In this document: positions 16,835 to 41,300 of the stretch, piece by piece
How positions within the stretch are numbered: the first letter of the stretch is position 1
How the letters are laid out: every line of letters begins with the position of its first letter
NCBI RefSeq assembly: GCF_000023905.1
Contig: NC_013192.1
Span: 1,860,001 to 1,924,000, forward strand
DNA length: 64,000 bases
Source of the DNA: Leptotrichia buccalis C-1013-b
GTDB lineage: Bacteria; Fusobacteriota; Fusobacteriia; Fusobacteriales; Leptotrichiaceae
Direction of reading: 5' to 3'
The notes under the pieces: generated by a model
The model's database searches: none
Seen by the model: only the letters and a program-made list of their open reading frames with translations
Told to the model about the DNA's origin: nothing
Position numbers and translations under genes: made by a program

Positions 16835-19694
16835 CGCTTAATTCATCCTCCCTTCTACAAATATTTGCATATTCTTTATAAAAATAATTTTTTGAATCTT
16901 TGAAATTGCCCAAATCATAAACTTCGTTATTTCTGTATCTGCTAATTACTTCCTCAATATTTTCCTTAGTTAATTTTTTATCTTCAGTTCTCTCATCTGA
17001 TACTAACGCACCTTCCCAAGTATCTACAATAATTTTTTCAATATTTTCATTATTGTCATTTTCCAGCATTAATGAATAGTAATCTAGCTGTTCCATTGCT
17101 TTATAAACTTTGTCAGTTTTATAGCCCTTTTTTCCATCTCTCAATTTCCCTGACTTATAATCAAATAAATAATTTTTATCACTCGTTTTTATATGCAAAT
17201 CTGTAACTCCATTAATGGACACATTCTCAAACAGCTCTTTCTCCGAAGATAATTTTATTCTCTCTTCAAAATAAATTTGAATATCTTTTTCAGTTTCCAG
17301 CTTCTTAATTAATTTTTCAAAATATTTTTCCGCTGAATTTAAAATTTCTTCAAATGAAACTTTTTTGTAAAATTCCAAATATTCTTTAGGAACTTTGTAC
17401 TCAAATGAATTTATTACATTTTCCAAAATTTCTGCTAGCTGGTTTCTATCAATTTCAAAAGTTTTATTTTCCAAGTCTGCCTTATTTTTCATAACGACAT
17501 TTTCGTAAAAAGCGTGAATTATCGTTCCAAATATCTTAACATTTAGTTCGTCTTCAACCTTTTCAACTTCCTGTTCCCCTATCAATTTTTCCAAATAATA
17601 CCCATACTCAAAATCTCTCATTTTCTCAAATGAATAATATCCCAAACTCAGTTTTTCAGCATTTATTTTCTCAAGGTCTTTCTCCAATTTTGATTGAATA
17701 AACTCCCCAATTTCCTTTTTATCCCATTTCTCTTTTCTATCCTTCAAGAAATATTTTTTCACAAAATAAAGCTCTTCCGCTTCACTTATTTCACCTTCTA
17801 TCACTTTAATTCCATACTTTAATTTCAATTCCTCGATAACGCTCGCCGAATCGATATTTTTCTCCAAATCCTTAACATATGCTAAATACACATTTTTCGC
17901 ACTTAGTATATTTTGATAAATTTTAAACATTTCAATCAATTTTTTGTCATCGCTTGTTGGAAGTCCCATTTTTGCACGTTGAACTTTTGAGAATAAAAAG
18001 TTATTCATTCTTATTTTTGGAAATGAATCCTGCAAATTTAAAATAATTATATTTTCCTTCGTATTTTCAGAAATATTTTGAAACGAATTTATCGAAAACC
18101 TATTTTCCAAATCTTCTTCAGCAGTTTCCTCCAAGTTCAATCCAATCGACTTTTTATCCAAATATTTCAAAAATAATTTTAATAAATTGGCTGAAATATT
18201 TTCATTAAAAAATTTATCCCACAAATTGTCAAAGCTAAAATCTTCCAGCACAACCATTTCCGACAAAGCCTCAAAATACTTATCCTTCACATTTTTATCT
18301 TCTTTTACTTTCTCCTCATTATTCAAATAAATTTTTTCCAAATAATCGCCATATTCCTTCAATGTCGTATACTCGTAAACTTTCTCCAGTTCTTCAACAA
18401 ACTTAATAATTTTACTGATAGCCGTCATTCTTTTTTTATAAATATCCTTAAATTTCTCCTTTTGATTCTCTTTTTCCAATTTTTTCAGTTCATCTTGATT
18501 AATTCGCTCCAATTCCTCTCTCGAAATGTATTTATAATCTTTTGAAGCCAAGTTCTGAAAAATGTAGTAGCTGTCTTTCAAATCAAAAATATTTAGCAAA
18601 TCATTAGATTTGTATGTGTCATAAAGATCTTTCACTCGAAATAAAAATAATTTTTCCCCACTTTTTCTATTAATTTCTTTCATATTGTCCAGCAAATTGT
18701 AAATTAAATTCAAAATTTTGTATATTTTAGTGTCTTTCATCGTTATTTCCAAATTTGAAGAAATCTTTTGCTGTCTCAAAAGCTGATAATCACTTTTTGC
18801 CTCTTCAGCATTTTCCTGTGCTTCAAAAATTCTATAATTCTCTCCCAAAGCTCCATTTTTCTTACCCGCCTTTTTACTCTCCTTCTCAACTTCCTCCAAT
18901 TTTCTCACTAGCCCCAGCAATTCTCCAAATTTACTGCTAAATTCATGAATTTCTATATTTATATCTTTCGCATCAAAAATCTCTTTCGCTGGCAACGAAA
19001 AACTTTCATTTATTTTCAATTCTTTCGTATCAAAATCATTTTCTGACAATTGCAAAATATTTTCCACAATTATTCCCTTTTCCTCAAAATTTTTCACAAT
19101 TTCCTTTTCAAGTGGAGAAAATCTCACTTTATTTACAAAACAAATCTTTTTATACTTTCTCAAAAAATTATCCGAAATATTTTCCACATTTCTAAGCATA
19201 TATGGCAAAATCAAACCTTTCATTTGACAAGTCTCTTTTACCTTTTCATCCACCATTTTCAACGTTTCAAACAAATTTTTCTGCCAATTTTCCAATTCAA
19301 TATTTTCCAAATCAATCTTATGCTCCTGCAATTCCGCAAACAAATTGTAATAATTATAGGCAATATCAATAATATCGTAATAACTCGACACTTCCAGCCT
19401 TTTCTTCAACTTTTCGTCCAACGAATTATAAAACAGTACAACCTGCTTTTCCTCTTTTACCACAATCTTATTTGTAACAAAGACATTTTCATAAAAATCA
19501 TAACTATTTATCAACCTAAAATTCTGAAAAATCCCTAAATCCTGCTGAATTTCCTCATTTTGTAAAAATTCCCTTTTAATCTCAAAAAACGAAGCCGAAT
19601 TTTCAAATACAAAAAGCGTATTTTCATTTTTCCTAAATTCTTCAAATAATATATTTTTTAAATCAGATCCAATCCCTCTGTAATTAATTTTCAT
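16821..19694 (-). CDS. addB: AddB/RexB-like PD-(D/E)XK exonuclease subunit
   Basis: This is the 957-aa partner of the AddA-like helicase. The N-terminal two thirds resembles an inactivated helicase scaffold: no GKT/GKS Walker A is visible near the start (NTLFVFENSASFFEIKREFL). The C-terminal quarter holds a PD-(D/E)XK nuclease: INAEKLSLGYYSFEKMRDFEYGYYL, GTIIHAFYENV with the motif His, SINGVTDLHIKTSDKNYLFDYKSGK and a Gln/Tyr motif AMEQLDYYSLML. Cysteines are few and isolated (ETCQMKG, KKICFV, NICRRED), so the 4Fe-4S cage of Bacillus AddB appears absent. An SD (AAGGAG) and a promoter precede it. The AddB assignment is by domain layout and pairing; identity is distant. Confidence 0.72.
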   Translation of the reverse strand: MKINYRGIGSDLKNILFEEFRKNENTLFVFENSASFFEIKREFLQNEEIQQDLGIFQNFRLINSYDFYENVFVTNKIVVKEEKQVVLFYNSLDEKLKKRLEVSSYYDIIDIAYNYYNLFAELQEHKIDLENIELENWQKNLFETLKMVDEKVKETCQMKGLILPYMLRNVENISDNFLRKYKKICFVNKVRFSPLEKEIVKNFEEKGIIVENILQLSENDFDTKELKINESFSLPAKEIFDAKDINIEIHEFSSKFGELLGLVRKLEEVEKESKKAGKKNGALGENYRIFEAQENAEEAKSDYQLLRQQKISSNLEITMKDTKIYKILNLIYNLLDNMKEINRKSGEKLFLFRVKDLYDTYKSNDLLNIFDLKDSYYIFQNLASKDYKYISREELERINQDELKKLEKENQKEKFKDIYKKRMTAISKIIKFVEELEKVYEYTTLKEYGDYLEKIYLNNEEKVKEDKNVKDKYFEALSEMVVLEDFSFDNLWDKFFNENISANLLKLFLKYLDKKSIGLNLEETAEEDLENRFSINSFQNISENTKENIIILNLQDSFPKIRMNNFLFSKVQRAKMGLPTSDDKKLIEMFKIYQNILSAKNVYLAYVKDLEKNIDSASVIEELKLKYGIKVIEGEISEAEELYFVKKYFLKDRKEKWDKKEIGEFIQSKLEKDLEKINAEKLSLGYYSFEKMRDFEYGYYLEKLIGEQEVEKVEDELNVKIFGTIIHAFYENVVMKNKADLENKTFEIDRNQLAEILENVINSFEYKVPKEYLEFYKKVSFEEILNSAEKYFEKLIKKLETEKDIQIYFEERIKLSSEKELFENVSINGVTDLHIKTSDKNYLFDYKSGKLRDGKKGYKTDKVYKAMEQLDYYSLMLENDNNENIEKIIVDTWEGALVSDERTEDKKLTKENIEEVISRYRNNEVYDLGNFKDSKNYFYKEYANICRREDELSDEDE

Positions 19695-19739
19695 AGTATC
19701 TTTCTCCTTAAATTGAAGATTTTTTATAAATTTTTTACT

Positions 19740-19769
19740 ATTATAACATTTTTTTTAAAAAATTGTGAA
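19740..19769 (-). promoter_or_regulatory. Candidate promoter of the addB-addA operon
   Basis: On the minus strand TTCACA (19764-19769) and TATAAT (19740-19745) are 18 bp apart, about 45 bp before the addB start. Confidence 0.5.
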
Positions 19770-19814
19770 AATATCCAAAAGTTGTTTCCAAATATTAATT
19801 TCAAAGTTTTAATA

Positions 19815-19934
19815 CTAAACCCGATTTGAAAAAAAGAAATCTAATAAAATATTCAACCAACATTCAACTTCTTCTTCCCCAAATAAACCACTTACAAAAT
19901 CTAAGATATAATCACATAAATTCAGAACTATCAA
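19815..19934 (-). CDS. Possible 36-39-residue acidic peptide under a HicB-type operator promoter
   Basis: An open frame follows the promoter/operator at 19978-20006 and an AGGAG at 19935-19939. The first in-frame start is a TTG that directly touches this SD; a CTG at 19923-19925 has better spacing (9 nt). The peptide contains CDYILDFVSGLFGEEEVECW and then NILLDFFFSNRV: acidic, two cysteines, alternating hydrophobics. I do not recognise it. The addB promoter lies just downstream, so the unit would be self-contained. It is shorter than usual annotation limits, and only the promoter-operator-SD-ORF order supports it. Confidence 0.3.
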   Translation of the reverse strand: MIVLNLCDYILDFVSGLFGEEEVECWLNILLDFFFSNRV

Positions 19935-19977
19935 CTCCTATATTTATTTTTCATATCATCTTTTTAATTACAAAATT

Positions 19978-20006
19978 ATTATAATACGTATTAAATACGT
20001 AGTAAA
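19978..20006 (-). promoter_or_regulatory. Promoter with ACGTATTAAATACGT operator left of the CRISPR array
   Basis: On the minus strand TTTACT (20001-20006) and TATAAT (19978-19983) are 17 bp apart. A perfect 15-bp palindrome occupies 19986-20000, inside the spacer. The same geometry, with the operator two bases from the -10 box, is found at the hicA promoter (24982-25010). It faces away from the array toward the short ORF and addB. Confidence 0.6.
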
Positions 20007-20052
20007 TAATTTTAAAACTTTTTTTAATATTTTTTCCAATTTCTAAATAAAT

Positions 20053-20074
20053 AAAAAAGAGCCTTATCGCTCTT
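20053..20074 (-). terminator. Terminator of the CRISPR transcript
   Basis: On the minus strand a perfect 6-bp stem AAGAGC/GCTCTT (20069-20074 and 20057-20062) with a 6-nt loop is followed by T6. It lies directly past the last, decayed repeat and closes the array. Confidence 0.7.
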
Positions 20075-20076
20075 AT

Positions 20077-20237
20077 TGTTTTATTAATATTCTAAATCTT
20101 TGATGGTGTTAATTTGAGGAACTTATATATATGTTTTAGTCCTCTTCATTTTTGGGGTGGTCTAAATCTATATCGAAAGTTAAGCTAGAATGTGTCATAT
20201 TGTTTTAGTCCCCTTCATTTTTGGGGTGGTCTAAATC
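20077..20237 (-). CRISPR. Type VI-A CRISPR array: two full repeats, two spacers, one collapsed terminal repeat
   Basis: Two 37-nt repeats lie at 20201-20237 and 20132-20168. They differ at one position (TCCCC against TCCTC, plus strand). Read on the minus strand they start GATTTAGACCACCCC and end GGGGACTAAAACA; CCCC/GGGG forms the short crRNA hairpin known for Cas13a. The orientation is set by the leader at higher coordinates and the terminator at 20053-20074. The spacers are 20169-20200 (32 nt) and 20099-20131 (33 nt). The terminal unit at 20077-20098 keeps only the repeat ends (TGTTTTA and TCTAAATC on the plus strand) with the hairpin core lost. The more divergent repeat is leader-distal, as expected. 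I could not match the spacers to any target. Confidence 0.93.
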
Positions 20238-20458
20238 CCATCCAATTATGGGATAATATGTTACTTTTTATTTTAATATTTGATTATTTATTGTTTTTTT
20301 ACTGATTTAGATTATCCCTTTGTCTTATTTTACCACATTTTTCTCATAATGCAAACTAATATTCCAAAATTTTTGTTTCTTTTCTTATGATTTTTTCTCC
20401 GATAGTTATTTCGCCAGATAAGATTTTCATTTTCTTGAACTAAACGACTTTATATTTT
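20238..20458 (-). promoter_or_regulatory. CRISPR leader between cas13a and the array
   Basis: These 220 bp of AT-rich sequence separate the cas13a stop from the first repeat. Next to the repeat is a perfect 7-bp inverted repeat ATCCCAT/ATGGGAT (20235-20254) whose left arm includes the last three bases of the repeat. No consensus promoter is certain, and no terminator was seen after cas13a. The array could therefore be read from a leader promoter or by readthrough from cas13a. Confidence 0.55.
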
Positions 20459-23400
20459 TTAGTTTTCAGATTTTTTTTCTTCCATTTTATATTCAAACAT
20501 AATCTTCACAAGTTTACACAATTCTTCTGAATTTCTATCAGTCATTAATTTTTTCTTTTTTAAATTTTTCAAATGTACAATTTTTTCCGACTCTAAAGTC
20601 TGAATTCCTATTTTCTTATCTGCTCCTATTTTAAATGTTGCTACAAAACCATATTCCTTTAATATATCCACTACTGATTTCATAACTGCATTTTTAAGTT
20701 TTCTATCATAAGAAAGTAGTTTTCTTAAATTTTCCAGCACTTCTAAAAGTGAAATTTCAGCATGCGGAATATAGTTGAAATGTGCAATATAGTTTCGTAT
20801 ATACAAATCTTTTTTCTCTTGTTTTAACACTTTTATATTTGCACTGGAATATTTATTTATTTTTACTTCATCATTTTGATGTAATTCCTTATAAAATTTT
20901 ATATACTTTTCAACAATTTGTCCACCTTTATATTTCACATTCTTTTTATTCTCAAAATTAAATATTTCTTCTATATACTGATTTTCTGGAAATTCCCCTT
21001 TTAATCTAAATCTCAAATCTCTTTCCCAAATCGAAGTATACCCCACAAGTCTATGAAGTATTCTTAATAGTAGACCTTGTAACAAATTTAACTCATTAAA
21101 TTCTACTTTATTTTTCAAATGAGTATATTCTTCTATATTTTCAATTGCCTGTTTATAGCTTTCATAATCTTCATCTGTAAATTTTTCATCTTTTCTAGGT
21201 CTTGCATATTTTCTATGTAAATTTTCCTGCATTTTATGATTTTTTTCAATTTCATTTTTTTTATTACTGTATTTTTTCAATTCTTCTATACTTATTTTAT
21301 ATCCTGCCTTATCCGCTATTTTCTCAAGTAAATTTAACATCCCATATTTTTTTATATTATAAAAAGCTCTATGCTTTATAATATTTTCTCCATCAAAATA
21401 TATTTTATTTGTGTCAAATTTCTTCAATTCTTTATTATCTTTTACCTTATTTCCATTAAAATCTAAAAACTTCCCAATTTCATCCGCTTCTAATTCAAAA
21501 TCTTCTGTTACTCTATTATTATCTAAATTTAAAAGATTTATAAGTTCAAGTTGATCTGAAAAAGCTTCTTCTTTATTTGCACTCTGATATTTTTCAAGAC
21601 TTCCTTTCAAATTAGTCAATTCTTTATGATTAAGCAATTTTAAAATTAAATAAAACATGTTCAATCTTTCGGTGTATTTTAATATATTTCCTAATTTTAT
21701 CTCTCTTAAAAATTCATTTATTTCATATGGAATTTTAATATTATTATTTTGTTCATATTTTTTCAAGAATTTATCAAATTCTTGCTTTTTTTCTGCTAAA
21801 GAAGTATTTGTTTCTTCATCGCTTCCAATATATATTAGGCTTAATCTTCCGTTATTTGCCAAGTAAGTCATAAATCCTTTTAAAAATATTTTTTGTATAA
21901 AGTCAATATATGTATCTTTTTCCTCTTCATCCTGATTTCCAGCATTAATCATATAAAGGCTTTGTATATTTGCAAGATATTCTTTAGGAATTTTTTCTTG
22001 AATATCTTCAAATTTTTGTAGTTTATAAAATCCAGTTTTTAAATTTCTTTTATCATTTTTATTTAATTCAATTATTTCTTTGCTTATCTCAAAAAAATTC
22101 CCGTTATTGCTCATAAAATAATTTAAAAATTCTCCATAATAAATATTTTTCAAAAGATATATCTGAGCATCTATAATTTCTTTAGTTTTATTATCATCAT
22201 TTGTTTTCGGAGTTTTCCAATAAATACCTAGACTATTTTTTAAATCATCTATCCTGCTGTACAATTTTGTAAATGACGGAACAAATGGAATATTTTTATT
22301 AACAAACTCAAATCGTGTTCTCTTTAAATAATTTAATATTTTATATTTTTCCAAATACCTAAATACATTCGCACTATTCAACTGCCTAAATATCTTCAAT
22401 TTCAATTTTTTCTCATTTATTTCATTTTGAAACATTTTTTTTGAAATTTCAGAAGGAGCTATATTTTTAAATGCAAATATATCTTTCCCTTCTAATTCCA
22501 AATTAAAATGCACAATCCCATGTCTAATACTGCTAATAGCTTCATCAATATTTGCGAAAAAATCTTCTATCTCATTTTTATTATCCATATTAAAATCATA
22601 ACTATAGAACATTTTTAAATTTTCTTTTACTTCATTTTTCTTGTTTTCATTGTATATTTTATCAACTTCTCCAGAAACATATTTTTCTTCGCCCTTATTA
22701 TTTTTTACAGTCTTTCCTCTCATTCTACCTGTAATATCATTCTCATTTTCAGTTTCAAGAATATTTCTCAATGAAAAATATGCAACCGAAGAAACTCCAA
22801 TTATATTTCGTAAAAATGCTTCATTTTGTCTATTCCTAGCAATAAAATCACTTGTTGCAATTTCTCCATCTTGTAAATAATAATTATATTTCCCGCAATT
22901 TCTTACATAAGTATCCAATTTATTTAGTAATTTATTTTCAATTAATTTTTTTAAATTTTGATATTCAAATATTCTCTTAATTTTATCGTTACTTATATTA
23001 CTCAGTCTTTTATACACATAATTTTTCAAAAGCTGACTCATTTCAATTTCCACAAAATGACAAAAAGCATATTTTATATTTTTATCATTAAGTTCTTCTT
23101 TATCCAAATAATATTTATAAAACACTTGTGATTTTTTTAATTCACTCATATCTGGAACTTTTTCAATTAATTCTTTCATATTATTTACATTTTGTATTTC
23201 TTCATAAATAATTTTAGCAAAATTTTCTTTATCATTTTTTCTTCCAATTATTTCGTGATAAAATTCTCTTATTTTATATTTTTCAAGCTTTGTTAAATTT
23301 TCTATTTCTAAAACTAACTTGGCAATATCCTCTTCTTTATATAATTTATCAAAGGCTTCTTTTACATTACTCACATAAGCATCACGTTTTGCTGATTCTC

Positions 23401-23938
23401 TGTAATAATCATAAATAATATTTCTTTTGCTCTTTCCTTCAACTTTTTCAATATTATTTTCATTAATTTTCTGGTAATTAGCCTTATTTTTTTCAAATGA
23501 ATATTTTAAAGAATTTATTTTATTCAATTTTTTCTTAATATCGTTTCTAAATACTTCCAATTCTTCTGAATTTACATTTTCATTTAAATATATTTTTTTT
23601 AAAACCGCAAAATTTTTTTTATCTCTTACATCGGATTCCAAAATATCTGTTTCAGAATATTCCCTGTCAATATTTTCCTTTTTTCCATTCTTTAAGCTTA
23701 AGGTATTGTCTTTTAAATACACCATTTTATTTGAAAAGAATTTTTTCAGTTTTCCTATTCTTTTTTGATTTTCTTTTGTTTCTGTACTGCTAGGATTTTT
23801 TATATACATATCTAGTCTCATATTTAAAAGTGCAGATAATCTCTCATCAGTCCTATTTTCTTCACTTTCGCTTTTTACAAGCCTTCCTTCACTAGTATAT
23901 TTTTTATGTGAAATTCCTCCAACTTTTGTAACTTTCAT
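20459..23938 (-). CDS. cas13a: Cas13a (C2c2) RNA-guided RNA-targeting ribonuclease, type VI-A effector
   Basis: Cas13a processes its own pre-crRNA, binds RNA complementary to the spacer and then cuts that RNA and bystander RNA with two HEPN domains. Both RxxxxH catalytic motifs are present: R472/H477 in SSIRHGIVHF (codons near 22525) and R1048/H1053 in YIRNYIAHF (codons near 20797). Length (1159 aa) and sequence match what I remember of L. buccalis Cas13a. The domain order would be NTD, Helical-1, HEPN1, Helical-2, linker, HEPN2. The ATG has an AGGAGG SD and lies 29 bp after hicB on the same strand. No cas1 or cas2 lies nearby. The array with the cognate repeat is 220 bp downstream. Confidence 0.98.
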   Translation of the reverse strand: MKVTKVGGISHKKYTSEGRLVKSESEENRTDERLSALLNMRLDMYIKNPSSTETKENQKRIGKLKKFFSNKMVYLKDNTLSLKNGKKENIDREYSETDILESDVRDKKNFAVLKKIYLNENVNSEELEVFRNDIKKKLNKINSLKYSFEKNKANYQKINENNIEKVEGKSKRNIIYDYYRESAKRDAYVSNVKEAFDKLYKEEDIAKLVLEIENLTKLEKYKIREFYHEIIGRKNDKENFAKIIYEEIQNVNNMKELIEKVPDMSELKKSQVFYKYYLDKEELNDKNIKYAFCHFVEIEMSQLLKNYVYKRLSNISNDKIKRIFEYQNLKKLIENKLLNKLDTYVRNCGKYNYYLQDGEIATSDFIARNRQNEAFLRNIIGVSSVAYFSLRNILETENENDITGRMRGKTVKNNKGEEKYVSGEVDKIYNENKKNEVKENLKMFYSYDFNMDNKNEIEDFFANIDEAISSIRHGIVHFNLELEGKDIFAFKNIAPSEISKKMFQNEINEKKLKLKIFRQLNSANVFRYLEKYKILNYLKRTRFEFVNKNIPFVPSFTKLYSRIDDLKNSLGIYWKTPKTNDDNKTKEIIDAQIYLLKNIYYGEFLNYFMSNNGNFFEISKEIIELNKNDKRNLKTGFYKLQKFEDIQEKIPKEYLANIQSLYMINAGNQDEEEKDTYIDFIQKIFLKGFMTYLANNGRLSLIYIGSDEETNTSLAEKKQEFDKFLKKYEQNNNIKIPYEINEFLREIKLGNILKYTERLNMFYLILKLLNHKELTNLKGSLEKYQSANKEEAFSDQLELINLLNLDNNRVTEDFELEADEIGKFLDFNGNKVKDNKELKKFDTNKIYFDGENIIKHRAFYNIKKYGMLNLLEKIADKAGYKISIEELKKYSNKKNEIEKNHKMQENLHRKYARPRKDEKFTDEDYESYKQAIENIEEYTHLKNKVEFNELNLLQGLLLRILHRLVGYTSIWERDLRFRLKGEFPENQYIEEIFNFENKKNVKYKGGQIVEKYIKFYKELHQNDEVKINKYSSANIKVLKQEKKDLYIRNYIAHFNYIPHAEISLLEVLENLRKLLSYDRKLKNAVMKSVVDILKEYGFVATFKIGADKKIGIQTLESEKIVHLKNLKKKKLMTDRNSEELCKLVKIMFEYKMEEKKSEN

Positions 23939-23967
23939 ATATAAAAACCTCCTAATATCTATATTTT

Positions 23968-24390
23968 TTACTCAATACCTAATTCTTTTTTTAATGCTTT
24001 TTGTAAAATCTGTGAAAAATTTAGATTTTTTTCCTGTGCCAATATATCTAGCCAAACAGGAATTGTTAAAGTTTTCTTTTTAAGTGCATTTGTAACTTTT
24101 GCCACTTCATACACTGGATCAACAGATAAAATATACAAATACTGATTTTCTTTCAGTTTCACATCCTCCACTTTTGAAGGCTCAGGAAATTTTTTTCTTA
24201 CATCCAAAAAATCAGCCAAATGCAGACCCAATGTCTCTCTCAAATTTGAAACAGCCTCCTCCATGCTGTCTCCAAATGTAGCATAATAATTTATCTCTCC
24301 ATCTTCAAACTTATCAAAATCAACAATACAACCATAATAAGTCCCATCTTCCTTAGTTACCACTACTGGATAAAATACATCCATTTTCAT
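23968..24390 (-). CDS. hicB: HicB-type antitoxin with C-terminal ribbon-helix-helix
   Basis: This 140-aa antitoxin should bind and block HicA and repress the module's promoter. The N-terminal partial RNase H-like fold is typical: FYPVVVTKEDGTYYGCIVDFDKFEDG, then YATFGDSMEEAVSNLRETLGLHLADFLD. The C-terminus (KKKTLTIPVWLDILAQEKNLNFSQILQKALKKEL, residues about 105-138) reads as a ribbon-helix-helix DNA-binding domain. An SD (AGGAGA) precedes the ATG. Normally hicA and hicB nearly touch; here 297 bp with CRISPR debris separate them, and hicB instead sits 29 bp before cas13a. It may therefore control Cas13a expression through the palindrome at 24408-24422. Confidence 0.85.
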   Translation of the reverse strand: MKMDVFYPVVVTKEDGTYYGCIVDFDKFEDGEINYYATFGDSMEEAVSNLRETLGLHLADFLDVRKKFPEPSKVEDVKLKENQYLYILSVDPVYEVAKVTNALKKKTLTIPVWLDILAQEKNLNFSQILQKALKKELGIE

Positions 24391-24407
24391 TATCTCCTAT
24401 CTATTTT

Positions 24408-24422
24408 ACGTATTGAATACGT
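24408..24422. promoter_or_regulatory. ACGTATTGAATACGT operator upstream of hicB-cas13a
   Basis: This perfect 15-bp inverted repeat, with arms ACGTATT/AATACGT around one base, lies 17 bp before the hicB ATG. It matches the sites at 19986-20000 and 24990-25004. A -10-like TATACA overlaps its upstream edge on the minus strand, but no good -35 box is visible. Confidence 0.6.
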
Positions 24423-24446
24423 GTATAAAAATGTTTATAAAATTTT

Positions 24447-24464
24447 TTTAGCATCTCTGCTAAA
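24447..24464. repeat. GNRA-loop hairpin, copy near hicB
   Basis: On the minus strand TTTAGCA-GAGA-TGCTAAA is a perfect 7-bp stem with a GNRA tetraloop. A second copy, TTTGGCA-GAAA-TGCTAAA, lies at 24588-24605. There one base change gives a G-U pair and the loop keeps the GNRA form. The flanking A/T runs are shared too, so about 30 bp is directly repeated within the hicA-hicB gap. Confidence 0.55.
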
Positions 24465-24587
24465 TCAAAATAATTATTTCAAATTTTTCTATTTTTTTAA
24501 TCATTCATTCAGAATCACTATTCTTTACTCGTATAACTTTCTTTTCACTTAATCTTTCTAAAATAATTAAACTTTTTCAAAAAATTT

Positions 24588-24659
24588 TTTAGCATTTCTG
24601 CCAAATTAAGAATTCCCTTCGTTTTTGGGGTAGTCTAAATCCCATCCAAATTATTGGAT
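24588..24659 (-). repeat. Degenerate CRISPR leader-repeat unit between hicA and hicB
   Basis: The block 24615-24641 matches the leader-proximal 27 nt of the array repeat at 25 positions, in the same orientation (minus). It includes GATTTAGACTACCCC and the start of the GGGG arm. The remaining 10 nt (24605-24614) have decayed. The match continues about 20 nt into the leader side, including an inverted repeat ATCCAA-ATTA-TTGGAT (24644-24659). In place of a spacer stands the GNRA hairpin copy at 24588-24605. It is an isolated unit, not an active array. The rest of 24391-24687 shows no ORF. Confidence 0.8.
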
Positions 24660-24687
24660 AATAATTTTTAGTGAAAGCAAGAAGGGA

Positions 24688-24870
24688 CTAGAATTTAATC
24701 CCAACTTGTTTTTCAATACTTTTTACTGTTCCTACAGGTATATCTTTTGAATATGGTACTGTGACCACACCTTCCACACCTGGGATCATCCATTGATAAT
24801 GACTACCTTTTATACGTACAACTTTTCCGCCTAATTTTCTAAATCTTTTTTCGATTTTTCTATATGACAT
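24688..24870 (-). CDS. hicA: HicA mRNA interferase toxin
   Basis: This 60-aa dsRBD-fold toxin cleaves mRNA and tmRNA when free of HicB. The family pattern is intact: SYRKIEKRFRKLGGKVVRIKGSHYQWM, with the catalytic His in GSHYQW, and a second strand pair leading to VTVPYSKDIPVGTVKSIEKQVGI. I start at the second ATG (24870), 9 nt after AAGGGA; the upstream ATG at 24879 touches that SD. It has its own consensus promoter with a palindromic operator. The usual tight link to hicB is lost (297 bp). The toxin residues look functional, so retained antitoxin control is expected. Confidence 0.88.
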   Translation of the reverse strand: MSYRKIEKRFRKLGGKVVRIKGSHYQWMIPGVEGVVTVPYSKDIPVGTVKSIEKQVGIKF

Positions 24871-24981
24871 AAATATCATTCCCTTCTAAAATAACGTTAA
24901 TCATAACTTCTAATAGAAAGTATCTGAAAATTAGGAATAGTTGAAAAGTTTTACAAATAGTCATTTTCAACTTACAAGTCT

Positions 24982-25010
24982 ATTATAACACGTATTCAGT
25001 ACATTGTCAA
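24982..25010 (-). promoter_or_regulatory. Consensus hicA promoter with operator in the spacer
   Basis: On the minus strand TTGACA (25005-25010), exactly 17 bp, and TATAAT (24982-24987). A 13/15 match to ACGTATTNAATACGT occupies 24990-25004, between the two boxes. A bound HicB dimer would block RNA polymerase. The leader to the hicA ATG is about 105 nt. Confidence 0.78.
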
Positions 25011-25029
25011 TAGTTTTTTAAAAATTTTT

Positions 25030-25067
25030 TTAGAAAAAATCACAGCCAATATTTTTAACTGTGATTT
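25030..25067 (-). terminator. Terminator of secG
   Basis: AAATCACAG (25037-25045) and CTGTGATTT (25059-25067) form a 9-bp stem. On the minus strand a T-rich tail follows. It separates the tpiA-secG unit from hicA. Confidence 0.7.
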
Positions 25068-25102
25068 CAATACTTTTATAAAATCAAAAAATTATTTTTC
25101 CA

Positions 25103-25312
25103 TTACGATCTTACAATTTGGAATAAAATTGCAACGACTAGAAATAATGTCGCAACAATTTCTGTAAATTTTTCGATTCCTTCTTTTTCTTCATCCAAAA
25201 TATTAGCAGAACTTTTTGCTAAACCTTGGCTTCTGTCTGGCTGTAGTAAAATTACGCTTATCATAATGATTGATAAAATTACTAAAGCTATAATTAATAA
25301 ATTTTCTAACAC
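25103..25312 (-). CDS. secG: Preprotein translocase subunit SecG
   Basis: This 69-aa two-helix membrane protein of the SecYEG channel eases SecA-driven export. Helix 1 is LLIIALVILSIIMISVILLQP. The conserved cytoplasmic loop DRSQGLAKSSANILDEEKEGIEKFT replaces the usual QxGKGxGLG stretch, and helix 2 is IVATLFLVVAILFQIV. The start is a GTG at 25312 with a strong AGGAGG SD. It follows tpiA by about 60 bp on the same strand, an order also seen in other low-GC bacteria with tpi/secG neighbourhoods. Its terminator is at 25030-25067. Confidence 0.85.
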   Translation of the reverse strand: MLENLLIIALVILSIIMISVILLQPDRSQGLAKSSANILDEEKEGIEKFTEIVATLFLVVAILFQIVRS

Positions 25313-25373
25313 GTGTTCCTCCTATAATTTACAAAACAAGAGAATAGCTAATCAATTTTATTTTTTAAATCAA

Positions 25374-26141
25374 TTATTTAGCTGCTGCATCTCCGGCTTT
25401 TATTATTACAGCGAATTTTTCAGGAATTAAACTTGCTCCTCCTACTAATCCACCGTCAATGTCTGTTTGAGCGATTAAGTCAGCTGCATTTGCGTCGTTC
25501 ATTGATCCACCATATTGAACTGTCACGTTTTCTGCAACTTCTTTTCCATATAAGTCAGTTAATAATCCTCTGATGAATGCGTGAACTTCTTGAGCTTGTT
25601 CTGGAGTGGCAGTTTTACCTGTTCCAATTGCCCATACTGGTTCATATGCAAGTACAACGTTTGCCATTTCAGCGGCTGTAACATCTTTTAATCCACCAAC
25701 AATTTGAGTTTTCACAACATCATTAGTAGTTCCAGCTTCTCTTTCTTCCAATTTTTCCCCAATACATAAGATTGGTTTCAAATCGTGCGCTAATGCTGAT
25801 TTTACTTTTTCATTGATGATTTCATCAGTTTCATGGTAATATTCTCTTCTTTCAGAGTGTCCTAAAATTACATATTCTACACCTAAATCTTTTAACATCA
25901 ATGGTGAAACTTCTCCAGTATATGCTCCGCTTTCTTTAGCGTTCATATTTTCAGCAGCGATTTTAATGTTGCTTCCTGCAGTTTCTCTAGTCGCTGTTTC
26001 TAATGCAGTGAAAGGCGCTCCGATTACGATTCCTGCATTTTTCACATCTGCTACTAAAGGTTTTAATTCATTGAAGAATTGTGCAGCCTCTTTTGCAGTT
26101 TTGTTCATTTTCCAGTTTCCAGCTACTATTACTTTTCTCAT
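25374..26141 (-). CDS. tpiA: Triosephosphate isomerase
   Basis: This TIM barrel interconverts DHAP and glyceraldehyde-3-phosphate in glycolysis. It has 255 aa, the standard length, when started at the ATG at 26141 (GGAGAAACT before it). The longer in-frame extension has no family counterpart. Catalytic and ligand residues are visible: Asn and Lys in GNWKMN, the electrophilic His in VEYVILGHSERREY, the general base Glu in VLAYEPVWAIGTG, and the phosphate loop YGGSMNDANA with GGLVGGASL. With aldolase (5.6 kb) and GpmI (30.4 kb) it makes glycolysis well represented in this window. Confidence 0.96.
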   Translation of the reverse strand: MRKVIVAGNWKMNKTAKEAAQFFNELKPLVADVKNAGIVIGAPFTALETATRETAGSNIKIAAENMNAKESGAYTGEVSPLMLKDLGVEYVILGHSERREYYHETDEIINEKVKSALAHDLKPILCIGEKLEEREAGTTNDVVKTQIVGGLKDVTAAEMANVVLAYEPVWAIGTGKTATPEQAQEVHAFIRGLLTDLYGKEVAENVTVQYGGSMNDANAADLIAQTDIDGGLVGGASLIPEKFAVIIKAGDAAAK

Positions 26142-32333: not shown

Positions 32334-35300
32334 ATGAGTAACAATTTAAAACAGGCGAAAAAAGATTTAAAGGCTTTTGCTAAAAGAGCGAAAAATGTAA
32401 AATACACGGAATCATTACTATTTTCGTACTTAATAACAGGAATGATAACATTTTCAATTGGTATCAATACATCTTCGGATGTACTTTATGAGCGTATGAA
32501 CAAAGAACTCGTAATGTCAGCAGAAAAAACACGTACTGCAATTAAGAAAAAGAAAAAAGCAAATAAAGAATCAATAGAAGACTTGAATTTGGAATTAATT
32601 CAATTAATGGAACAGGGAGACCAAGTTATAAAATCAAAATGGGATTCATGGCAATTTGGTTCAAATACATTTGCATCGAGAAACAATGGAGCTTACAAAG
32701 GAAGAGGGGATAAGGCTTCAAAATACCCTTTTGTAGGAGTTTATAACCGTGGAAACTGGGGAGAAACAGCAGCTTTGTCAAATAGAAGAAGAGTTCTAAA
32801 TCCAACAATTAATTCGTCATCTGTAGGTTCAACATCTTACGGATTGGCTTCATTGTTGCATGTGCAAGAGCCTGAAGTAGAAATCCAAATAATGGCAAAT
32901 GTACGTCCAAAATCTGTTTTAAAAGAAGAAATAACAATTACCCCACAAATTGATATGCCAAGAGAAGTGGTAAGACCAGCGATTAATTTAGGTGTAACTA
33001 CGCCAATAGCAGCACCAACAATATTGCTACCAACATTAAATCCTGTAGCAATAGAAGTTGCAAAAATTGATGAGCCGGGCGCACCTTCAAAAGTTGATCC
33101 AATAAATATTACAATGAAGCTGGATGCACCACAAATAACTTTGAAAATTACACCGCCATCATTAACTATGGCGATTAGCGCACCAGAAGCTGAAGTAAAT
33201 ACGATAACGATTACACCTCCAGGGGTTTCGGAAGTTAGTACGATTACTGTGAATAAGCCAGCTGCACCGAGCGTTACACCACCTAGTCCAACAGTGAATC
33301 CAATAGTTTTTAGTATTCCAAACTTGAAACCTTATGGAAATAATCAATATCAATCAAGAAATCAAAATAAAAATTTAGAGGCAAAAATTTATACTTTATC
33401 TGTTCAAGATGATCCACAAAGAGGAGATGCTTCAATTGTTGAATATATAACTAATACTGGCGAATTTACTGCTCCAAGTGGAACTGTTATGAATGTTGAT
33501 GTAAAACGACGAAGAGCAGTAACATTAGATCCTGGACTTCCTACAAAGCAAAAACCTGGAATAGAAGAATGGGGCGGAATTGACGATCCAAACTATTCTT
33601 TCGAAAATTTTGGAAGGATTAATTTAATAGTAGAAGATACAGCAGGTATAGAAGTTCAACCGGATACTCATAAAGGAAATTTAAAAGTTAAGGGTATAAA
33701 CAGCGGAATTATTGAAGGAAAAGCTGACAAACAAGCTGCAATGTTATTCACATCTGAAAATTCTACTTCTAAAAATGAACATACATTGATAAATAAAGGG
33801 AATATTATTATGGGAGGTAAGAATTCAGTAGGATTTGCGACTAGTGATTTTATTGTTGAGAACAATAATAAGGCAAGTTGGCATATGATTGCAAAAAATG
33901 AAGGAATTATTGATTTAAATAATGAAAAAAATCATGGAATGGTAGTTGCTAAAACTCAAATTCCAATAGGTAGTAATTCTAGTTTTGAAAATAGCGGGAC
34001 AATTAACGTGAATGGGAAAGAATCTGGTGGAATTACCTTGTTAGATAAGATACCGACTGCCACAAATACTGGTACTATTAATATAACAGGAAAAAATTCT
34101 TTTGGGCTTTATTCTGAAGTGGATTCAAAGATAAAAAATGCTGGAAATATAAATATTAAAGATGGCGCTACAGGAAGTATGGGAATTAGAGTTGGAAGCA
34201 CCACAGCAACTAATATGTCTAATGAAGGTGGAACTATTACTATTAGCAGTAAAGATGGTAATAATATGGGGGTTTATTCAGAAGATGCGCCATTTGATAA
34301 TAAAGGTGCTATTAAAGTTGAAGGAAAGAATGGAAATATTGGAATGTACTTCAACGGAACAACTGGAGGAACAAATAAGAATCAAGGGGCAATTACTGTT
34401 ACTGGGGAAAATGGTTATGGTGTAATGCTTAATAATGGTTCAATATTTGAGAATCATGATTCAATAAAAGCAACAGGAACTGATGCAATGGGAATGTACA
34501 TGAAAAATTCAACTGCCACAAACAAACAAAACAAAACTATTTCAAGTACAAAACACCATGCAGTAGTTCAAGATGGAGGAACATTTACGAATGAAGGAAC
34601 TGTTTCTACTGAGGCAGGTGGAAAAGTTGCCTTATATTCTGAAAACGGAACATTTACAAATACAACAGATGGAGTAATATCGGCTAAAAATGGTGGAATT
34701 GCTATGTTTGTAAAGGATTCTACGGGAACTGTTGCAGGAAAAATTAATGTTGGAGACTCTGCAAATGGAAATACTGGAATTGGTGTGTATCTAGACGCTG
34801 CTTCTAGTAAAACTGTAACATTCAGCGGAGCAGAATTGAAGTTAGGGAAAGGAACAGTTGGACTTTATGCGGAAGATGCGGATAAATTTGGGACAGGATT
34901 TGCAGCAACTAATTTAAAAGCAGATGTTGGAGAAGGAGCAGCACTTGCATATTTTGGAGCTGTGGGAACAGGTACTATAAGTGGTGGAATATTATCTAAT
35001 ATAACATCATTGAAAATGGGACCTAAATCTACACTTCTATATGGAGATAAAAATTCAACAATAGTGGTTAATGATAATTTTGATATGTCAACATATACAG
35101 ATATTGATAAAACAGCTCAATTTTTAGTATCTGATCAGGGAACTACTACAATTAATGCTAGTAAAACTATAAAAACTAACTTGAAAACTACAGTTTCAGG
35201 ATTAAGTGGCGCCAATGTAACAAATAAAGGAACAATTGAAATGGCAGGAACTGATGAATCTGTGGGAATTTACTTAAAAGGTTCAACAGGGACAAATGAA

Positions 35301-38300
35301 ACAAGTGGGAAAATATCTGTTGGAGAAAATCAGTCTATAGGTATTTATGGTATTGAAACTTCTGTATTGACAAACAAAGGAACAATTGAAACTGAAAAGG
35401 AAAAATCAGTTGGGATGCTTGGGAATGCGAGTACAATAGACAATGTTTCAAGTGGAACAATTGAAACAAAAGGTGAAAAATCAGCTGGAATTTATGGTAC
35501 TAACGAATCAACAATTACAAACGAAGGTACAATAACTGCCAAGAAAACTGGATCAGCCGGAATTTATGCAGATGATAGTCAAGTTACAAACAAGACAAGC
35601 GGAATTATAGATACTGAAGAAGGAAAATCAGCCGGAATTTATGCTATTTTTAAAAAGGCAAAAAATATTGAAAATTCAGGAACAATAAATGTCGGAACAT
35701 CATCGTCTCCTGGAACAGAAACTCAAGGAATTGGAATTTATGCAAAATTAGATACAGCAGCAACAGGAAATTTGAAAATAGAAAATAAAGAAGCTATAAA
35801 TATTAATATACAAAAATCAATTGGGATTTATGCACAAAATGAAACAGGTTCTGATGGAAGAGTTACGGTTGAAAATAGTAAAGATATAAGTTCCATTGCT
35901 ACTGCTAACGGAGCTATAGGGATAATGGCTAAAAAAGCTAAAGTAACCAATATGGCAAGTACTGGGAAAATAGAACTAGGAGGAAAAACATCAGTTGGAA
36001 TTTATGGAATAGAAAATTCTGAACTGAAAAATTTTGGAAGTATTTTACTTACCAATACGGCTACAGATTCAGCTTCAGTTGGTATGATGACAGATGGAAA
36101 AAAACTTGAAAATGACGGAATTATCACAATGAGTGGTGGAGCTTCAGCAGGAATGATAGGAAAAGACGGAGCAACCATAAAAAATAATGCTGCGGGAACT
36201 ATTACAATACAAGGTGAGAAATCAGCGGCAATTTATACTGAAAATTCAACGCCATCAAATGCAGGTACGATTAATATTGAAGGTAAAGAATCATCTGGAA
36301 TATTTGCAAAAAATACTGATAATAAGGACTACACTATCGAAAATACAGGAACAATAAACTTAAAGGGGACTGCAACACCTCCGGGAACTCAGTCAGCTGG
36401 AATATATGCCGAAATTGGACCTTCAGCTGGAAAAACTACAGTGTACAATAAAAATAAAATAACTGTGGGGCAGAAAAATTCTGTTGGAATATATATAAAA
36501 AACGATGCGGCTAGAGAAAAAGGAGAAGCCATAAATACTGGGACGATTGATCTGGATGTTGAAAGTACAGTTGGAATCTTTGTGAATAAGGCAATTGGAG
36601 AAAATAGAAATATAATAAATGTAAAAGATAAGAGTTCAGCTGGAATGTATGGAAGTAACGATTCTGTAATAACAAATAAAAATGAAATCAATGTTTCAAG
36701 TGAAGATTCAGCTGGAATGTATGCTTTAGATTCAAATGCTACAAACACAAGTACAGGAAAAATAACATTGACAGCGTCTAGTGGAGCATCTAGCGGTTCA
36801 GCTGGAATGTATGGAAAATTATCAAGTTCATCAGTAAAAGATTATACAGTATTGAATGAAGGAGAAATCAAACTTACATCTGTTACTAAAAATGTTGGAA
36901 TTTATGGTGAAGCTGCAAGTGGAGCTGCTAAAACATTGACTTTACAAAATAATAAAGAAATAAATATTGATAATGGAAGTACAAAATCTGTTGGAATTTT
37001 TGCAAGAAACGACCTTTCTAATAGTGTAGATACAATAAAAGCAATTAATAAGGCTGGAGCAACAATTACAGTAAATTCAGAAGAATCAATTGGAATTTCG
37101 GCAGTAAAAAGTACAGTTGATAATAGTGGAACAATTACTATGAACGATAAAAAGTCCGCAGGAATTTACGGTAAATCTGGCTCAAAAGTAACTAACAATA
37201 AGAAAATTGAAATGAAAGAAAAAGAATCAGCTGGAATTTATCTTGAAAATAGTGATGCTACAAATGCGGCAGATGGAACAATTACTATTGATAAAGGAGC
37301 TTCGGCTGGAATTTATGGTAAATTTACAAGTGATGCGACAGATGACAACACAATAGTAAATAATGGTAACATTACTTTAACTGGTACAAGTGGAGAAGAA
37401 AAGAGTGCTGGAATTTATGGAGAACGCGATTCAACTGCTACTAAGAAATTGACAATAACTAATAATAAAGAAATTGAAGTTAACATGAAGAAATCTGTTG
37501 GAATATATGCCTTAAATGAAGGAACAAAAAATAGAGATGATTTAGTTGCGGAAAACAATGCAAGTAATGGTGAAATTAAAGCAAATTCTGAAAATTCAGT
37601 TGGAATGCTTGCTAATAATTCAGTGGCAAACAACAAAAATAAAATAACAGTAAATAATAAAAAAGCTACTGGAATGTATGGAGAAAATGGTTCATTAATA
37701 ACTAATGATACTACTGGAAAAATTGAAATCACGACTGCTGGTGAACAAGCAATGGGAATTTACGCAACAGGAAAAAATACATCTACAGGAAAAGTTACAG
37801 AAGGTGTAAATGACGGAACTATTGATGTAAAAGGAAAAGAAGGCACAGGAATGCTTGCAACTGCCAACGCTAAAATTGTTAATAATAAATCAATAACTGG
37901 TTCAGTTGAATCTGTAATTGGAATGTATGGAGTAGATAGCGGAACTGAAGTAATAAATAAAAAAGATATCGAATTATCTGGTAAAAAATCTACAGGAATA
38001 TTCGCAAAAGATGATGCCAAAGCACTAAATAAAGGGAAAATACTGTTAAAATCTACTTCCGACAATTCAGTGGGAATGTTTGGAGTGTCAAGCGGAGCTG
38101 GGAAAAAAATTACTCTAACTAATGATACCGACGGAACAATTGATGTGGAATCTGAAAAATCTACAGGAATGTTTACAAAAAATGATGGTAATTTAACAGA
38201 TTCGACTGTAAAAAATGAAGGAATTATAAATCTTAAAACAAAAAATACAGTTGGAATTTATACTCCAAAATCTGATGTACAAAAAGTAGGAAGAATTAAC

Positions 38301-41300
38301 TTGGAAGACGATGCTGAATCTTCAGTAGCTGTATATTTATCAGAAGAAGCCAAGGCAGATGCTTCAACAGGAATAATTGACTTGAAGGAAAAATCTCAAA
38401 GCAGAGTTGCCTATTATATAAAAGGAACTTCTGCCACTGACACTGGAAAACTTTATGGAGCAAATATCGGTAAAATAAATGGTTATGGAGTTGGAGTCTA
38501 CCTTGACGGAGGTAAATTGGATGGAACTACTCCTAAACTTGATTACACAAATGGAAGTACAGGAAATGGGATAATTGGACTTCTTATGAAGGGAGCAAGT
38601 GCTGATATTTCAACTTATACCCAAGGAATAAAAGTTGGAAATTCTGTATTAGACGAACCAAATGATTTTTATGCAATAGGAATTTATACTGATGAACAGG
38701 GGACTTCTGGAACTCCGAAAGCTATTTCAGCTGATGTGACAACGGGTGCAAATGGAGTAGGACTATTTGCTGAAAATTCAAGTCATATTACTTATACAGG
38801 AACTATGAGTATAGGAAATAATACAACAGCTGGAACTGGTATTTACATTGGAAATGGTGGAGACGGAACTAAGACTTCGACTGTAACAATTGATAGTGGT
38901 GCAGATATTAAATTAAATGGAGTAAATGGAGTCGGAGCAATTGTTACCACTAATGCAACAGTTAATTTTGAAACTGGTGCAAAAATTCAATTTGGTGGTG
39001 ATGGAGTAGGTATCTTTGGTCAAAAAGGTGCACATATTAATGATAATGGTGGAACTTTAGTTACTAATGGGCATTCAGTAGAAAGAATAAGAGTAACCGA
39101 AGGAAAATCAGAAACTAAAGTCGATTTAACCTTAGAAACTGGAAATATTATGTCACATGTTATAAATGGAGAAGCTATTGTAAATGCTGGAGTTACTGTT
39201 GATTCAAAAGTAAACTCTAAAAATATTATTGCACTTATGGCTGATGGTAATAAAAATCCATCTCCGAGTCACACTACATGGATAGGAACACTTGGATATG
39301 ATGCTGAAAATAATGGAAAAATTGATTTGTCAAATGCCGTTACAAGTACAGCGATGTATCTTGATTCTTCGAGAGGAATTAACAAAGGCGAAATTATTAT
39401 GGGAGATAAATCAACTGGTATTTATGGAATTTATAAAAATTCAACATCAGTTTACAGTGATGCATTGCCTGGAACTAAAAACACAGGAATAATTACAACA
39501 ACAGCAAATTCAAAAATTACAATTGGAAATGAATCGTCTGCCATTTATGCCATTGGATTTGATAAAGTTGAAAATAATGGAGAAATAGAAGGAAAAGACA
39601 AATCTGTTGGAATTTATGCAAAAAATACTACTTCTAGTACTAAACCAGTAAATGTTAACAATACTGGAGATATTACTTTAGGAAAAGGTTCAGCAGGAAT
39701 TTATATTTCGCCTGAAATTTCAACTGCAACTGTAGTGAATAGCGGAAACATCACAGTCGGAGATTCCACATTAAATTCGAGCGGAGATGTCGAATCTACT
39801 TCTGTTGGAATATTTGTAAAAAATAAAACGAATTTAACTACAACAGGAGATGTAACAGTTGGAAATAAAGGATTTACATTATATGGAAATGATTCAACAA
39901 TAAACGTAAACGGTGGAAACTATGATTTCTCAAACAGCGGAAGCCTTGCCTACCTTGAAAACAATGCTGTTCTTAACTATAACAACAGCGGAACATTGAC
40001 AACATCATCAGAACCAATGCTGTACATAATTAACAGTAAAGCAAATATGAATAATAATGACATTATTGTAACTTCCAAAGGAACTGGTATTTATATGAAT
40101 GGAGTTTCTACATTTAGCGGATGGAACAATATGACTTTAAATGATGGTTCAACTGGAATTTATGCGGATAATTCAGATGCAACAGTAACTGGTAGAAAAA
40201 TAACAGGAACTTCTGATAAAGCAAAAGGAATTGTTGCAAGAAATTCAAGTGTTACGAATAATGCGAATATGGATTTTTCAAATGATGATTCAATTGGAAT
40301 CTTCTCACAAAATAAATCATCAGCTGTAAAAAATATTGTAAATAATGGAAATATTAACATTACAGGAAAACGTTCAATTGCTGCATATTTAGAAGGTACT
40401 ATGGAACAAACATTTGAAAATACAGGTACGATAAACGTTGACAAAACGACAACTTCTGTGAAAAACGATTCTACAGTTGGAATTTACGCACAAAGCGGTT
40501 CAAAAATTAATGTAAAAAATAGTGGAAAAATAAATGTAGATGAAGCTTCATTTGGAATTTATTCACTTAGTGAAAACGGAAATATAGAAACAACAGGAAC
40601 TTCTGTAATCAATGTCGCAGACAAAGCTATTGGAATTTATAAAAAATCTGGAACTGCCAATCTTGGTGGAACAATCAATGTTGCAGATCATAATGCAACT
40701 GATGTGAATAGTGAGCCTGTAGGAGTTTACGGAACAAGTGGAGTAACAATTACTGACAATACATCAATCTTTAAAGTTGGGGATAAATCTTATGGAGTAA
40801 TTTTGGCAAATCCTGGATTAAGTAAAACAAATGTTTATTCAAATTCAGCTTCATCAAAGATAAGTTTAGGAAAAGAATCGACATTCCTTTACACTGAAGG
40901 AACATCACAGGCTACAAATAATGGAACAATTACATCTGGAACAAATAATGGAATTATCGCAATTTACGGAAAAGATGGAGCAAACATTGTAAATAACGGA
41001 ACAATTGACTTGTCGCAAGGAATCGGAAATCAGGGTATGCTTGTAACAGGAGCATCAAGCGCTACAAATAGAGGAGCAATAAAAATAGGAAAAACTGACA
41101 AGTCTGATCCAGATAATATTATTTACGGAATCGGAATGGCAGCCATTGACGGAGCATCTGCAACAAATACAGGAGATATCTATGTTTCAGGAAATCTAAG
41201 TATCGGAATGTACGGAGATAAGAGCGGAACAACTTTGAGAAATGATGGAAATATTTATCTTGATGCTTCTGGAGCGACTTCAACTGACAAGATTCAAACA

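Follow-up and report, generated by a model that had tools for sequence, protein, structure and literature searches.

Putative HicAB control of the cas13a gene in a type VI-A CRISPR-Cas island of Leptotrichia buccalis

LbuCas13a, the type VI-A CRISPR-Cas effector of Leptotrichia buccalis, is a workhorse enzyme, and its home locus raises the question of how its gene is controlled there. We approached this question in a window of 64,000 nucleotides from L. buccalis C-1013-b (contig NC_013192.1, positions 1,860,001 to 1,924,000 of the forward strand; coordinates are those of the window unless a genome position is stated), in which cas13a lies between secG and addB together with a hicA-hicB toxin-antitoxin pair and several CRISPR repeats. 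The open-licence literature searched held no paper on home-locus control of the LbuCas13a gene, and none linking HicB to cas13a or describing this wiring. LbuCas13a and its small array have already been described; the HicAB wiring is the addition made here. We consider it probable that the locus is a type VI-A defence island whose effector gene is controlled by HicAB and whose array is near frozen, and home control of cas13a may come from HicB if this reading is true.

Effector, toxin-antitoxin pair and operator dyads

The 1159-aa protein of the island is Leptotrichia buccalis Cas13a, the type VI-A effector. It is matched over its full length in the PDB by 9mvs (2468 bits, self-score 2467.7) and by 5xwp and 5xwy (2461 bits), it matches the PADLOC Cas13a model (E=2.4e-249), and the residues of both HEPN RX4H motifs, R472/H477 and R1048/H1053, are unchanged across an alignment of three proteins. 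The first-pass annotation of this DNA had named a type VI-A Cas13a with both motifs and had suggested its identity to the L. buccalis enzyme; the structural, PADLOC and alignment data bear this out, and the protein search returned no different family. RNA-guided RNA cleavage with collateral activity is established for LbuCas13a itself. The type VI-A island of that annotation also stands, but it had overlooked the HicA/HicB pair framing cas13a, a collapsed second array and three operators, and its limits, 19978 and 25010, are the edges of two promoter-like sites, which we replace by about 19762 and 25030. The features that carry our reading are as follows.

19762 to 25030, minus strand: whole island, from the secG terminator to the addB promoter; edges approximate, by alignment to sister genomes
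24982 to 25010, minus strand: hicA promoter TTGACA-17-TATAAT, with a putative HicB operator dyad (24990-25004, 2 mismatches) in its spacer
24688 to 24879, minus strand: hicA toxin gene, 63 aa (Pfam HicA_toxin 6.7e-16; PDB 9svk_A 2e-36)
24408 to 24422, minus strand: perfect putative HicB operator dyad ACGTATTGAATACGT, 0 mismatches, in front of hicB-cas13a
23968 to 24384, minus strand: hicB antitoxin gene, 138 aa (Pfam HicB_lk_antitox 3.5e-6, just over the cut-off; PDB 9svk_B 5.7e-88)
20459 to 23938, minus strand: cas13a (LbuCas13a), 1159 aa, starting 29 bp after hicB on the same strand
19978 to 20006, minus strand: third promoter-like site TTTACT-17-TATAAT, with a perfect putative HicB operator dyad (19986-20000) in its spacer

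Read on the minus strand from secG to addB, the order is thus hicA promoter, hicA, a solo CRISPR repeat, dyad, hicB, cas13a, array, terminator-like hairpin and promoter-like site. The toxin and antitoxin have a near-identical solved counterpart in PDB 9svk, a HicA-HicB complex that matches both window proteins end to end with, in the alignments, 2 differences in HicB and 4 in HicA; 9svk was not among the fold-library matches (library up to 2026-04-08). If HicB starts as in 9svk it has 138 aa, and from 24390 it has 140 aa. Its AlphaFold model (mean pLDDT 75.5) gives Z scores of 10.5-10.8 to 6g1c, 6g1n and 5yrz over residues 1-100, and fold comparison of the model indicates a partial RNase H fold; the C terminus, where model confidence is lower and the fold matches hardly reach, has a ribbon-helix-helix-like sequence and most of the invariant alignment columns. 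HicA carries the conserved GSH motif common to its Leptotrichia relatives and is followed by a terminator-like hairpin. The gap between hicA and hicB is 303 nt here and holds a CRISPR repeat, against roughly 25-45 nt in 6 relatives (estimated from match ends); hicA went undetected at E up to 0.1 in the other 16 of 22 relative loci (L049-L060, L063-L072; L055 was weak in another search), so the comparison stands on those 6. Some HicB relative was found in 40 of 98 Fusobacteriota genomes.

The island contains three copies of a 15-bp dyad of HicB-operator type, ACGTATTnAATACGT: one precedes hicA (2 mismatches), one precedes hicB-cas13a and one follows the array (0 mismatches each). Shuffled islands (n=200) held a mean of 0.01 dyads at 2 mismatches and none at fewer. 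The hicA promoter is the sole 12-of-12 match in a scan of 19600-25200; the scan overall ran at chance, with 43 sites found and 42.3 expected, and we used only this site and those coinciding with dyads. The sister island of another Leptotrichia genome (L011 in G003) has dyads at the same three places, with 2, 2 and 1 mismatches, and its dyad before hicB, ACGTGTTTAACACGT, is altered in pairs in both arms with the symmetry kept. Elsewhere in the Fusobacteriota, three hicAB operons of the ordinary kind (L064, L067, L068) have the 17-bp promoter spacer before hicA filled by the dyad, with TTGACT or TTTACT on the left and a TATAAT-like box on the right. The same dyad-in-promoter layout stands before hicB in L066; phage phiFN37 (L072) has TTGACT left of the dyad and no clear -10, and L063 has no visible promoter. 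With up to 2 mismatches, the dyad was found in 6 of 10 non-Leptotrichia HicB loci, compared with a mean of 0.23 and a maximum of 4/10 for 120 shuffled arms; one shuffled arm attained those 4 loci, so the null lies above zero. The ten comprise nine genome places (the best of their genomes, from a longer list) and one of 175 phage records. From these patterns we take ACGTATTnAATACGT to be the putative operator of this HicB subfamily.

Control of hicB would be expected to extend to cas13a because the gene starts 29 bp behind hicB and lies behind an operator that is symmetric in two species; this anatomy supports a predicted repression of cas13a by HicB. The promoter-like site at 19978-20006 points at addB from about 280 bp. 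No gene was seen between it and addB, and HicB might, through this putative operator, also affect addAB.

HicB autorepresses at palindromic operators, and excess HicA relieves the repression (PMC10865869). With L. shahii Cas13a in E. coli, tRNAs are cleaved at their anticodons upon targeting, and type II toxin RNases become active as an indirect consequence; tRNA cleavage alone suffices to slow growth, and the toxins are called a backup (PMC11042736). Taken together with the anatomy of the island, these two lines of work predict repression of cas13a by HicB and HicA release on targeting. HicB would repress hicB-cas13a besides its own promoter, so that Cas13a would be held low and would rise on HicB depletion. 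Once Cas13a meets its target RNA, translation would stop and the labile HicB would drop, freeing HicA and derepressing cas13a, which would reinforce dormancy; we infer this freeing of HicA and lifting of repression by target recognition. A bolder proposal, which we advance tentatively and would not expect to hold in full, is that a split toxin-antitoxin circuit under HicB control includes cas13a as its third gene. Such a circuit would use proteins to guard and amplify the CRISPR system, with HicA, freed by Cas13a activation, as an additional programmed RNase. As a guard, the circuit would have hicB and cas13a inside a cassette bounded by two arrays and hicA outside it; if the arrays recombined or the operon fell silent, HicA would be set free, with death or arrest of the cell as the outcome. 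We propose that the split pair would in this way penalise loss of cas13a. The guard idea, with a lone hicA left after array recombination, would best fit the sister island, which has two arrays.

Arrays, solo repeat and adaptation genes

The first-pass annotation placed a matching array of two full repeats about 220 bp downstream of cas13a. The array is indeed there, on the same strand and 222 bp past the stop codon of cas13a, with a third, remnant repeat; a solo repeat upstream of hicB is an addition.

20202 to 20237, minus strand: CRISPR repeat 1, leader-proximal, 36/36
20169 to 20201, minus strand: spacer 1
20133 to 20168, minus strand: CRISPR repeat 2, 35/36
20099 to 20132, minus strand: spacer 2
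20077 to 20098, minus strand: third repeat remnant, hairpin lost, by reading the sequence
20057 to 20074, minus strand: terminator-like hairpin 3' of the array
24606 to 24641, minus strand: degenerate VI-A repeat standing alone, with a leader end of its own, 28/36, between hicA and hicB, upstream of hicB

The array repeat presumably agrees with the LbuCas13a crRNA handle. Neither spacer had a further copy in the 13 genomes of the genus (up to 3 mismatches) or a match in phages, and exact 22-nt spacer cores were absent from the viral contigs searched; plasmids lay outside the spacer search.

The solo repeat is likely the relic of a second array, to judge from the sister island, where the hicA-hicB interval holds two repeats (35/36 and 34/36) and a degenerate third; the sister's downstream array has six repeats, the last degenerate. 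The solo repeat has lost its 3' part (fold of -3.2 vs -6.9 kcal/mol), and its appearance would fit an array collapse that joined the first repeat to the last. In a test of such a collapse, the terminal repeat of the sister matched the flank of the solo repeat better than the inner repeats did, with a best score of 24.5 that is suggestive only, as it lies about 2.9 s.d. above the shuffle mean yet below the shuffle maximum of 27.5. Two small hairpins were seen nearby on the minus strand: TTTAGCA-GAGA-TGCTAAA, with a GNRA-type loop, before hicB (24447-24464; also in L011), and a similar one with a GAAA loop directly behind the solo repeat (24588-24605). We also observed an inverted repeat (e.g. 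ATCCCAT..ATGGGAT) at the end of the leader, reaching into the opening bases of the first repeat, in 5 intact VI-A junctions folded without a shuffled control (the window region 20230-20260; L011 before 6050 and 10640; L012 before 12358; L028 before 6884). As far as PMC13187072 covers type VI-A, it gives no leader-repeat hairpin signal, the question there being hairpins that disrupt the repeat fold.

No cas1 or cas2 was found within the island or nearby, as the first-pass annotation had said of the window. Genome-wide, cas1 occurs only twice, at genome positions 870918 and 1172381, roughly 1.0 and 0.7 Mb from the island and each time beside cas2; to judge by their open reading frames (ORFs), one of the two loci is type I-B and the other type III. 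The repeat-core pattern (0 mismatches) occurs at 3 places in the 2,465,610-bp genome, all inside the island, so the wider search for other arrays with this repeat found none, and the array next to the I-B genes is built on a repeat unrelated to this one. L. buccalis C-1013-b is listed with I-B, III-D and VI-A systems, and Leptotrichia loci without cas1/cas2 have been reported and proposed to share the modules of other loci (Watanabe 2019, PMC6914741). Since only some VI-A and VI-D loci carry cas1 and cas2 in the 2025 classification, and these genes are optional for the subtype (PMC12669027), their lack is compatible with VI-A membership. The first-pass alternatives, a frozen array or adaptation in trans, are supported and were already published (PMC6914741). 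Because the genome's only Cas1-Cas2 pairs belong to the I-B and III-D systems, the array would appear to be close to frozen.

The secG-addB site and other Cas13a loci

The flanks of the island align close together in L039, L041, L034, L037 and L043, and also in L042, where another gene is inserted. The left-flank alignments of L034, L039 and L041 end at 25030, and the right-flank ones begin between 19762 and 19709. In the fetched stretches, addB was found beside secG without the island in 6 of 11 other Leptotrichia genomes; the stretch from the remaining 5 island-less genomes was without addB, so that site occupancy is counted for 6 only. The island was probably gained by transfer. In L042 (about 1400-2850) a mobile-element-like gene, TnpB-like by eye, fills the secG-addB gap, which is a possible insertion hot spot. 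Rfam gave no match at E up to 1 within 19500-25500. Elsewhere in the window, a 3644-aa ORF at 32334-43268 has no Pfam match at E up to 0.001.

Cas13a was found in 6 of 98 Fusobacteriota genomes, and by the PADLOC model in 4 of 13 Leptotrichia genomes at 5 places. Two of these places are at the secG-addB site (G000 and G003 contig 5); the other three, one each in G003 (its second Cas13a), G004 and G006, are next to thrS, which was recognised from ORFs by eye. Additional scans of genome contigs, viral contigs, plasmids and phages gave no further Cas13a loci. The sister island L011 has the same gene order, with a Cas13a 85% identical, and its genome also carries a second VI-A locus, L012, with cas1-cas2. 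No match to the island hicB or hicA was found by tblastn in the fetched stretches at the Cas13a places L012, L044, L045 and L046; the seventh Cas13a place, on a short contig of G024, lay outside the comparison. At the thrS site (L012 7574-12797, L044 7117-12537, L045 5430-10838) we noted very similar cas1-cas2 beside clearly different Cas13a proteins of about 1140 and 1385-1389 aa, and effector exchange at this fixed site is possible. Along the two cas13a genes of the secG-addB site (window 20467-23939), identity runs from 0.76 to 0.98 per 250-column step with its peak in the middle, an unevenness that suggests recombination.

Several known systems share parts of this layout. The Leptotrichia type VI-A systems (LbuCas13a, LwaCas13a, LshCas13a; Watanabe 2019, PMC6914741) share effector, repeat and array, and loci without cas1/cas2 are already reported there; in its main text, 'toxin', 'antitoxin' and 'hicb' have 0 occurrences, and the hicA-repeat-hicB-cas13a order, the operators and the collapsed array go unmentioned. 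Type II HicAB with a DNA-binding HicB (PMC10865869) resembles the island pair in its families and in its palindromic operator in the promoter, here by sequence, whereas the island differs by the 303-nt gap with a CRISPR repeat, by three operators and by cas13a behind hicB. CreTA shares the idea of a toxin-antitoxin protecting a CRISPR system; in contrast, the island has two protein partners, and control would be by HicB with no guide RNA. The thrS-site VI-A loci (L012, L044 and, by ORF, L045) have a Cas13a with a related repeat, but carry cas1-cas2 after the effector and no match to the island HicA or HicB in the fetched stretches.

Weighing the explanations

Several observations weigh against HicB control of cas13a. 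Among 12 loci with Leptotrichia HicB paralogues (11 genes, 34-43% identical), only 1 has the dyad, with 2 mismatches and about 1.1 kb from its hicA. The dyad before hicB sits in a region without a clear -35/-10, and same-strand promoter-like sites within hicB (24069-24041, 10/12; 24317-24288, 9/12) could serve cas13a alone. The layout with a repeat or array between hicA and hicB-cas13a was available in two islands only, and the ratio of nonsynonymous to synonymous substitution (dN/dS) of hicA is based on 62 codons. A serious though unlikely alternative is that HicAB is a passenger addiction module that keeps the island without controlling Cas13a, the operators serving hicA and hicB and the cas13a promoter lying inside hicB. 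Toxin-antitoxin pairs commonly ride on islands; this island is absent from its site in the 6 genomes counted above, a strong promoter precedes hicA and a terminator-like hairpin follows it, and promoter-like sites occur inside hicB. However, the promoter-like sites within hicB occur at chance frequency for the region, and with cas13a 29 bp downstream of hicB and preceded by an operator whose symmetry is shared by two species, control of hicB would be expected to reach it.

The near-frozen state of the array is the one part of our reading with which feeding in trans by the I-B or III-D Cas1-Cas2 would be incompatible. We hold such feeding to be rather unlikely: two cas1-cas2 pairs exist in the genome, sharing has been proposed for Leptotrichia (PMC6914741), and the leader end and repeat 1 look intact, but the I-B and VI-A repeats are not related, the array has two spacers only with a degraded terminal repeat, and the second array is down to one repeat. 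The same decay, together with spacers for which no match was found, could be read as that of a relic island without function. This we judge improbable, as Cas13a is intact, structurally solved and active; moreover, dN/dS between the L. buccalis and sister islands is 0.19 for hicA, 0.17 for hicB and 0.24 for cas13a, below 0.25 throughout, and the operators have kept their symmetry. A further candidate was a crRNA-like RNA from the solo repeat with which Cas13a would regulate hicA or its own operon, in analogy to CreA/CreR (CreTA precedent, PMC10097628). The position of this degenerate repeat between toxin and antitoxin, with a leader end, speaks for it; against it are the two-repeat array at that place in the sister, the lost 3' part with its weaker fold, and an antisense comparison of the 28 nt behind the repeat with the island that gave 18, at chance for shuffles (mean 17.5, maximum 20). 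We consider this role most improbable, and it was dropped on account of the sister array and the chance-level match inside the island.

HicB control of cas13a is thus the reading that we prefer. If HicB does repress cas13a, the toxin-antitoxin pair would be the switch of an abortive CRISPR system. The toxin-RNase activation reported after Cas13a targeting, which concerned E. coli toxins, would then gain a built-in counterpart in the same operon.

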